Assembly: GCA_030673895.1 (NCBI GenBank)
Contig: JAUTCR010000033.1
Location: forward strand, 62,001 to 126,000
Direction of reading: 5' to 3'
Origin: Verrucomicrobiota bacterium JB023
GTDB lineage: Bacteria > Verrucomicrobiota > Verrucomicrobiia > Verrucomicrobiales > Akkermansiaceae
DNA: 64,000 bases
Shown here: positions 43,058 through 47,939 of the stretch, piece by piece
Layout: each line of letters begins with the position of its first letter
How positions within the stretch are numbered: the first letter of the stretch is position 1
Notes under the pieces: generated by a model
Told to the model about the DNA's origin: nothing
The model's database searches: none
What the model saw: the letters and a program-made list of their open reading frames with translations, nothing else
Translations under genes and position numbers: made by a program

Positions 43058-43132
43058 GCTTATGTAGCTCAGGGGTAGAGCACATCCTTGGTAAGGATGA
43101 GGTCGCGGGTTCAATTCCCGCCATAAGCTCCA
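43058..43132 (+). tRNA. tRNA-Thr (GGT)
   Basis: 75 bases with all stems. Acceptor GCTTATG pairs with CATAAGC, discriminator T, encoded CCA end. The anticodon stem CATCC/GGATG holds loop TTGGTAA, giving anticodon GGT (threonine). The T arm GCGGG-TTCAATT-CCCGC is standard. First element of the tuf transcript. Confidence 0.95.
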
Positions 43133-44448: not shown

Positions 44449-44524
44449 AGGATGGTAGCTCAATTGGTAGAGCATCGGTTTCCAAAACCGAGGGTTGCGG
44501 GTTCGAGTCCTGTCCATCCTGCCA
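44449..44524 (+). tRNA. tRNA-Trp (CCA)
   Basis: 76 bases. Acceptor AGGATGG pairs with CCATCCT, discriminator G, CCA encoded. Anticodon stem TCGGT/ACCGA with loop TTCCAAA gives anticodon CCA (tryptophan). T arm TGCGG-GTTCGAG-TCCTG is near standard. secE begins 24 bases later. Confidence 0.94.
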
Positions 44525-45837: not shown

Positions 45838-45947
45838 TCAAAGATGATATCCGGAGTCGTTGGCCTGAATGGGGGAGTGACACCGGTAAACCGCAGGAGA
45901 GTCCGAGCGTAAAGCATTTGGATTCGCCAGCACTGCAAAACAAGAAA

Positions 45948-46666: not shown

Positions 46667-47179
46667 ATGAATCCCGATAAAAAAATCATTGTTGATGAGA
46701 TCCTTGAGCGAGTGAACGGCTCGCCCTTCCTTCTCGTGGTGAATTATAACGGAATGACCGTACCGCAGTTCAACGAATTGCGGAATCGCCTCAGCGAACA
46801 TGGTTCCGAATGCCATGTCGGCAAAAACCGCTTCATGCGTATTGCCCTTGAGCAGGCTGGTTTACCCACCCTCGAGTCCGACCTTAAGGGGCAGACCGCT
46901 TTCATCACCGGAGAGAGCGATGTCTGTGCTGCGGCCAAAGTTCTCAAGAATTTCACCAAGGAGTTCAAGAAGCCTGAGATTGTCAGCGGTATCCTCGATG
47001 GTGCTGTCCTGAGCGCGAATGAGATTGGCGATTTGGCCGAGCTTCCTTCTCGCGAAGTCCTCCTCGCCCAGTTGCTTGGAGTTATCAATGCTCCTGCGAC
47101 GAAGCTCCTTCGTACCATCAACGAGCCTGGTGGCTCCTTGGCTCGCGTCATCAAGGCAAAGTATCCGGACGGCGAGTAA
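46667..47179 (+). CDS. rplJ: 50S ribosomal protein L10
   Basis: 170 residues. L10 anchors L7/L12 dimers to the ribosome stalk. The N-terminus KKIIVDEILERVNGSPFLLV and YNGMTVPQFNELRNRL, plus the C-terminal helix for L12 binding (ATKLLRTINEPGGSLARVIK), fit. A GGAG site precedes the ATG. No leader structure fits in the 20-bp gap before it; a structured stretch lies after it instead. Confidence 0.95.
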   Translation: MNPDKKIIVDEILERVNGSPFLLVVNYNGMTVPQFNELRNRLSEHGSECHVGKNRFMRIALEQAGLPTLESDLKGQTAFITGESDVCAAAKVLKNFTKEFKKPEIVSGILDGAVLSANEIGDLAELPSREVLLAQLLGVINAPATKLLRTINEPGGSLARVIKAKYPDGE

Positions 47180-47220
47180 GCGTCCGTTCAGAAAGACAAA
47201 GAAATATTTCGAACCGATAT

Positions 47221-47319
47221 CCCGGTGTGTGAGCACCGGGACTGAGACCCGTGAGGTCCCTTGTCGGAACCTGCGGCTGCAGGGGCTGAAATGGACCGGA
47301 GGCTTCCGGTCCGCGACAA
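47221..47319 (+). ncRNA. candidate structured RNA element between rplJ and rplL
   Basis: Ninety-nine bases with four compact helices. Hairpin 1: 47221-47227 with 47234-47240 (7 bp). Hairpin 2: 47246-47249 with 47255-47258. A closing stem 47261-47266 with 47314-47319 (6 bp) then encloses two arms: 47270-47274 with 47279-47283 (5 bp) and 47293-47300 with 47305-47312 (8 bp), a three-way junction. Both arms have the loop GGCT, and GGCT also occurs in the joining strand (47284-47287). It ends 19 bases before the rplL start, so it could control L12 output. No known family is recognised. Confidence 0.6.
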
Positions 47320-47338
47320 CACCAAACCAAAAAATAAA

Positions 47339-47725
47339 ATGGCTGATATTGCACAAATTGCAGAAGAATTGGGCAAGCTGACCGTACTTGAGGCGGCAGA
47401 GCTTGTGAAGAAGTTGGAAGATGAGTGGGGCGTAAGCGCTGCTGCACCTGCGGCCGCCATGATGGCGATGCCTGCTGGTGGTGGTGGTGAGGCTGCTGCT
47501 GAAGAAGAGAAGACCGAATTTGACGTCGTTCTCGCTGAAGCTGGTGGCAACAAAATTGCTGTCATTAAGGCTGTCCGCGGCGTTGTTAGCGGTCTGGGCC
47601 TTGCGGATGCCAAGAAATTGGTTGAAAGTGCACCGACCACGCTTGCTGAAGGTCTTGCCAAGGACGCTGCTGAGGAAGCCAAGAAGGCTCTCGAAGAAGC
47701 TGGCGCCAAGATCGAGCTCAAGTAA
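47339..47725 (+). CDS. rplL: 50S ribosomal protein L7/L12
   Basis: 128 residues. Recruits translation factors; several copies per ribosome. The N-terminal dimerisation domain ([20 protein letters not shown]), the Ala/Gly-rich hinge ([20 protein letters not shown]) and the C-terminal domain ([20 protein letters not shown]) are complete. The start is ATG 47339 (an earlier in-frame codon reads through the structured leader). Followed by an attenuator-like terminator before rpoB. Confidence 0.96.
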
Positions 47726-47748
47726 TCAACAGATTTCTTTTACCGAAA

Positions 47749-47778
47749 CCGGGAGAGCTTTGGCTCTTCCGGGTTTTT
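47749..47778 (+). terminator. attenuator between rplL and rpoB
   Basis: 47749-47758 pairs with 47763-47772 (10 bp, one G-T pair, loop TTTG) and is followed by T run 47774-47778. The organisation matches the partial terminator that lowers rpoB/rpoC transcription relative to ribosomal proteins in E. coli. The T run can also pair downstream, so the two structures compete. Confidence 0.7.
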
Positions 47779-47838
47779 CGGCTTCTGGAGGTGCTAGGAA
47801 AATCGCTTTTTATCAGCACCTCTAGAAGCCGGGAAACC
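47772..47838 (+). promoter_or_regulatory. long stem-loop between rplL and rpoB, RNase III-type
   Basis: 47779-47795 pairs without gap with 47815-47831 (17 bp, one G-T pair). The stem extends outward to 47772-47778 with 47832-47838, 24 bp in all. A 19-base loop can add four A-T pairs. In E. coli a RNase III cleavage hairpin occupies the same intergenic space. Its outer part includes the T run of the attenuator just upstream. Confidence 0.65.
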
Positions 47839-47939
47839 GAGACAATTTTCATAGGGATTCATTTCCCGCCCTTCAAACCGAGATTCTCAGGCTCCGCGCG
47901 AGCGACCTGATCAAATTAGCCCAAGACACAAAGCCAAAA

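Follow-up and report, generated by a model that had tools for sequence, protein, structure and literature searches.

Autoregulation of rplJL by the L10(L12)4 complex has been described elsewhere, the leader of the mRNA mimicking the rRNA site by means of a kink-turn and a UAA (PMC4538822; PMC10931766). The corresponding Rfam family, RF00557 (L10_leader), was searched for in the phylum to which our locus belongs, where none of 145 genomes gave a match over the cut-off and one gave a match below it; the search control gave a match in 4 of 14 control genomes. At gathering scores, Rfam models matched only tRNAs in the window, by which we mean the whole stretch of 64,000 nucleotides that was analysed, and at permissive thresholds (E up to 10) they matched nothing over the element described below. 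Chance microRNA-type matches did appear at the hairpin after rplL, on both strands of the second (47778–47836) of two large inverted repeats in the rplL–rpoB gap (47726–47939), the first of which is at about 47750–47778.

The window is part of a 4.03-Mb genome, and comparison of its L12 gives Akkermansiaceae, Roseibacillus and Haloferula as the closest named relatives. The gene order, read directly, is tuf, secE, nusG, rplK, rplA, rplJ, rplL, rpoB, rpoC. Two tRNA genes (43058–43129 and 44449–44521) flank tuf in this gene run. The initial annotation of this DNA had pointed to the scant room ahead of rplJ, and the rplA–rplJ gap does measure 20 nt; the rplJ–rplL gap measures 159 nt.

The rplJ–rplL gap contains a three-way-junction RNA, at 47255–47323 (Table 1). 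Its architecture, from 5' to 3', is P1a, internal loop, P1b, P2, linker, P3, with 0 nt joining P1 to P2, 5 nt joining P2 to P3, and no more than a few joining P3 back to P1. When 47255–47323 is folded alone, the minimum free energy (MFE) fold, at −32.0 kcal/mol, is exactly the comparative structure, with pair probabilities of 0.52–0.68 in P1b. The span initially annotated, 47221–47319, folds at −50.3 kcal/mol (z −3.4), which none of 200 shuffles equalled; in this longer fold the outer 6-bp stem, P1b, is absent, another partner being preferred. Single-sequence folds gave a three-way junction for 168 of 189 homologous matches.

Table 1. Features in and around the rplJ–rplL gap (window coordinates)
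Feature	Position	Strand	Remarks
rplJ (L10)	46667..47179	+	Gene 5' of the element; ORF of 170 aa; tblastn to rplJ of relatives
P0 hairpin, 7 bp (47221–47227/47234–47240)	47216..47245	+	Flanks GAU (47216–47218) and UGA (47243–47245); kink-turn-like
P1a, 5' strand GGU	47255..47257	+	Partner 47321–47323; 96% of cells paired, double changes in 3/3 pairs
Internal loop, 3-nt side CCC	47258..47260	+	Opposite 47320 (C); 3-nt by 1-nt loop in the MFE fold
P1b, 5' strand UUGUCG	47261..47266	+	Partner 47314–47319; 97.8% of cells paired; in the MFE fold
P2 hairpin, loop GGCU (47275–47278)	47267..47286	+	Double changes in 7/7 pairs
J2/3 linker UGAAA	47287..47291	+	Best conserved part; class-wide UNAAA
P3 hairpin, loop GGCU (47301–47304)	47292..47313	+	Double changes in 6/6 modelled pairs
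P1b, 3' strand CGACAA	47314..47319	+	Pairing seen in the 100-sequence alignment
P1a, 3' strand ACC	47321..47323	+	Pairing in the 100-sequence alignment and the MFE fold
A-rich spacer, 15 nt, no Shine–Dalgarno	47324..47338	+	Up to the rplL start; mean unpaired probability 0.87
rplL (L7/L12)	47339..47725	+	128-aa frame; homologues 51–91% identical; putative target of the element

Every stem that had been named in the initial annotation is there in the sequence: one of 7 bp (CCCGGTG/CACCGGG), one of 6 bp (TTGTCG/CGACAA), which is P1b, and two arms, of 5 bp (CCTGC/GCAGG) and 8 bp (GGACCGGA/TCCGGTCC), each ending in a GGCT loop, with a third GGCT in the joining strand (47284–47287). Conservation of these loops extends over the families grouped with the window but not to Opitutaceae. 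A 4-bp GACC/GGTC hairpin can likewise be read, but it is not conserved, its GGU pairing with ACC in P1a instead; it is the window's version of an alternative hairpin between an upstream GAAC and the GGUUC of P1, which is found in many sequences but shows no covariation by eye, and which we rejected. The 7-bp hairpin is real but stands apart from the junction, as described below. The J2/3 linker is usually UGAAA within the window's group and UUAAA in most other families, the data for some distant sequences being taken from the broad 33-sequence alignment (see below). The 3-nt by 1-nt internal loop of P1 is also found in most sequences from other families; it is followed by Watson–Crick pairs, and with no tandem GA present a kink-turn in P1 was rejected. 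Kissing between the P2 and P3 loops gave a small overall gain over shuffled pairings, with relatedness uncontrolled, and is kept only as a suggestion; in 20 of the 20 sequences in which the P2 loop starts with AGC, the P3 loop has GCU.

The covariation of the junction stems is very strong, far beyond controls. For the first alignment, rplJ–rplL gaps were excised from relatives and not fitted to the structure, and on this alignment RNAalifold, given no structure, recovered the junction; in 16 of its 18 pairs both partners show compensating changes. With the named structure, 91.0% of cells were paired in 33 sequences, against 71.4% in shuffles, and the covariation score of the 33 same-group sequences was 0.522 (shuffles, 0.159; slid, at most 0.126). 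A covariance model, R1, then yielded a second alignment, of 100 distinct elements from the window's group. In this alignment, which is fitted to R1 and hence biased to the structure (a bias shared by neither the initial alignment nor the unconstrained RNAalifold run), 94.5% of cells are paired, 20 of the 22 pairs have double changes, there are 454 double-change cells against 121 in shuffles, and the score is 0.564 (0.152 in shuffles, at most 0.088 when slid).

The 7-bp hairpin, P0, which had been counted as part of the element, is a separate conserved stem 5' of, and outside, the junction. Among 61 distinct stems from relatives, 88.5% of positions pair, compared with 66.6% when strands are swapped. 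The flanks around the stem in relatives are GAU/UGA, GAC/CGA or GAA/CGA. The tandem GA beside a U.U, C.C or A.C looks like the core of a kink-turn; a second stem across this putative core was searched for among the P0 regions of relatives and none was recognised.

In the window's own genome R1 finds a single match and no second, and across the phylum it finds one match each in 53 of 387 genomes. Genomes of the window's family were also picked by rplL position alone, irrespective of the R1 result, and the element is present in all of the approximately 120 family genomes examined; four loci missed by R1 among the position-picked genomes are of the Opitutia type. In the homologues, the stretch from the end of P1 to the rplL start codon has a median length of 17 nt, which is inside the usual reach of the initiating 30S subunit. 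R1 misses most Opitutaceae gaps, where the same plan is written in different letters: P1b is GGCUAG/CUAGCC, P2 is GGGA-UACG-UCCC, the linker is UUAAA, a P3 hairpin follows, and there is a lower stem beyond a short asymmetric loop. This P2, seen in many Opitutaceae (L249–L273), has a UNCG-type tetraloop, and GGCU loops are absent. An alignment of 29 Opitutaceae-type sequences, with the lower stem poorly aligned, scored 0.334 (0.157 in shuffles, at most 0.213 when slid), and one Opitutaceae element is scored by R1 itself at E = 1.9e-7, forming a bridge between the two groups.

A second model, R2, reaches more families, with each element read directly 5' of rplL. The broad alignment of 33 sequences has double changes in 15 of 17 pairs and scores 0.505 (0.208 in shuffles, at most 0.181 when slid), and the model built from it, R3, matches 58 phylum genomes. 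Since the R1 and R3 matches share no family, the three covariance models combined give 111 of the 387 sampled phylum genomes with exactly one copy each, all in the same class. The covariation analysis that the initial annotation had suggested thus found stems conserved and compensated across this whole class. By eye, diverged three-way junctions are also seen in family f8 (L355) and in one of two f4 genomes (L356); in the f8 element P1 consists of two segments parted by a UC bulge, and the linker is UUAAU. No junction was seen by eye in the f7 gap, from a 0.9-Mb genome, nor in the rplJ–rplL gaps inspected in sampled families outside the class, which are mostly short (28–65 nt in most, up to 218 nt) and in which a Shine–Dalgarno sequence is usual. 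Searches of rplJ–rplL loci of other phyla with the models gave no credible match. In every group that was read, the element is placed directly 5' of rplL.

The best reading is a cis-regulatory RNA acting on rplL translation, given the invariant linker, the covariation and a position before a single cistron that hardly varies. A consistent place directly 5' of a ribosomal protein gene and a conserved, covarying structure are traits of ribosomal leaders that are seen in this element. The initial annotation had offered a new autoregulatory site as one possibility, and this fits the near-constant position, the single copy per genome, the absence of an L10 leader and the lack of room for a leader before rplJ; the ligand named below is a proposed one.

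The junction of helices h42, h43 and h44 in 23S rRNA is the GTPase-associated centre, where L11 is seated beside L10–L12. Its linker is UUAAA, residues 1082–1086 in E. coli numbering; the genome's own 23S rRNA reads CCAUUUAAAAAG at h43–h44. The element's junction linkers, of 0, 5 and 0 nt, appear to match those of the rRNA junction, the 5-nt linker reading UUAAA in most families and nearly so (UGAAA) in Akkermansiaceae, a short likeness. Consisting as it does of the 5-nt linker and the linker lengths, this resemblance is a lead and no proof. The stalk proteins, which sit at the rRNA junction that this one resembles, are the ligand we propose, and we put at about even the chance that rplL is translationally autoregulated by the L10–L12 complex, perhaps with L11. 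In such a scheme, L10–L12 complex left over from assembly onto 23S rRNA, perhaps together with L11, would bind the junction, the bound complex would block the 30S subunit from the rplL start and less L12 would be made, the switch being placed within the operon, 5' of rplL, instead of 5' of rplJ. The defining feature of the L10 target, the kink-turn, is missing from P1, and this counts against autoregulation. The fuller proposal, that the element is a class-wide mimic of the 23S stalk-base junction through which the stalk proteins set L12 separately from L10 inside the operon, we advance tentatively, thinking it somewhat less probable than not. If true, the one ribosomal protein that has multiple copies would have its stoichiometry controlled directly.

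It is unlikely, in our view, that the RNA is instead a ligand-free promoter of translation, whose rigid junction and A-rich spacer would hold the rplL start open so that L12 is made in excess of L10. In its favour, each ribosome requires several copies of L12 (PMC10931766), the window's spacer is mostly unpaired, and a Shine–Dalgarno-like motif occurs in the spacer of no more than 58 of the 149 elements from the window's group. However, the absence of such a motif is not special, the motif being found at 1 of 27 rplK, none of 55 rplA, 13 of 55 rplJ and 14 of 59 rplL genes. Most neighbouring genes in these genomes likewise lack it, so that its absence at the window's rplL provides no clue, and an enhancer deduced from that absence was rejected. 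Moreover, Opitutia-type rplL genes have a Shine–Dalgarno sequence in 29 of 33 cases and keep the element nonetheless, and a passive prop would need neither an invariant linker nor compensated stems of near-constant length.

That the control site serves another ligand (L1, say, or a small molecule or an RNA-binding factor) seems to us improbable. A three-way junction with a conserved linker is the plan of some riboswitches too, the P2 and P3 loops possibly touch in the window's group, and the gene for L1 is in the same gene run. Yet the element is always and only 5' of rplL, linkage to metabolic genes is absent, and the rplK–rplA gap holds a better candidate for L1 (see below). The other suggestion of the initial annotation, a processing element raising L12 over L10, found no support. 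An RNA processing or stability element that parts the rplL mRNA from the upstream transcript would suit a site that separates neighbouring genes of one operon, the cell requiring different amounts of the two proteins, but the helices, of 3–8 bp, are well under the usual RNase III duplex and the near-constant distance to the start codon suggests initiation; we consider it improbable. Chance folding of a G+C-rich spacer, for which the single-sequence z-score of only −3.4 might speak, is contradicted by the covariation, which exceeds that of shuffled and slid controls in each of three alignments, and can practically be discounted.

A second conserved RNA structure lies in the rplK–rplA gap (45893–45936), with the form GCAG-GA-[variable stem]-GNNNGNA-CUGC. 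It ends about 10 nt 5' of rplA (L1), has 5 of 9 predicted pairs compensated and occurs at most loci in the window's group; at the Opitutia-type loci L032, L036 and L070, with gaps of 9–18 nt, it is absent. Our guess is that it is an autoregulatory site for L1. Together with the junction, it suggests that the class has put the controls of the L11–L1–L10–L12 cluster between cistrons. Among ribosomal proteins, L12 alone is known to occur in several copies, and few bacteria have been studied for how its amount is set against that of L10. With a conserved RNA only 5' of rplL, in a large class (including Akkermansia) without an L10 leader, this question becomes directly testable.

Full-text literature searches, which covered the main texts of openly accessible papers, gave no description of the element, and the junction RNA is apparently undescribed so far. 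Eckert and Weinberg 2020 (PMC7247131) present 20 candidate ribosomal leaders, which likewise draw on comparative evidence and are structured RNAs 5' of ribosomal protein genes; Verrucomicrobia, rplJ, L12 and uL10 are not mentioned in the main text of that paper. Like h42–h43–h44 of 23S rRNA, the element is a three-way junction with a 5-nt linker between the arms and little or none elsewhere. Unlike it, the arms are shorter and of other sequence, and the stem is without a kink-turn; the h43 and h44 loops read by L11 are not reproduced, those of P2 and P3 being short and of other sequence. Mimicry of rRNA by the whole model was rejected, the search of the whole genome with R1 having found no second match. 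The RF00557 model has a kink-turn with a UAA and then a terminator hairpin, whereas the element is a three-way junction with no kink-turn in P1 and no terminator. In RF00557 the kink-turn is a tandem GA after a 3-nt bulge, with an unpaired UAA nearby, whereas P0 has the GAU/UGA core only. The L10 leader of E. coli and B. subtilis is 5' of rplJ, and the element is between rplJ and rplL. Nevertheless, both are structured RNAs carried by the mRNA that encodes L10 and L12, and for both an rRNA-like target is proposed.
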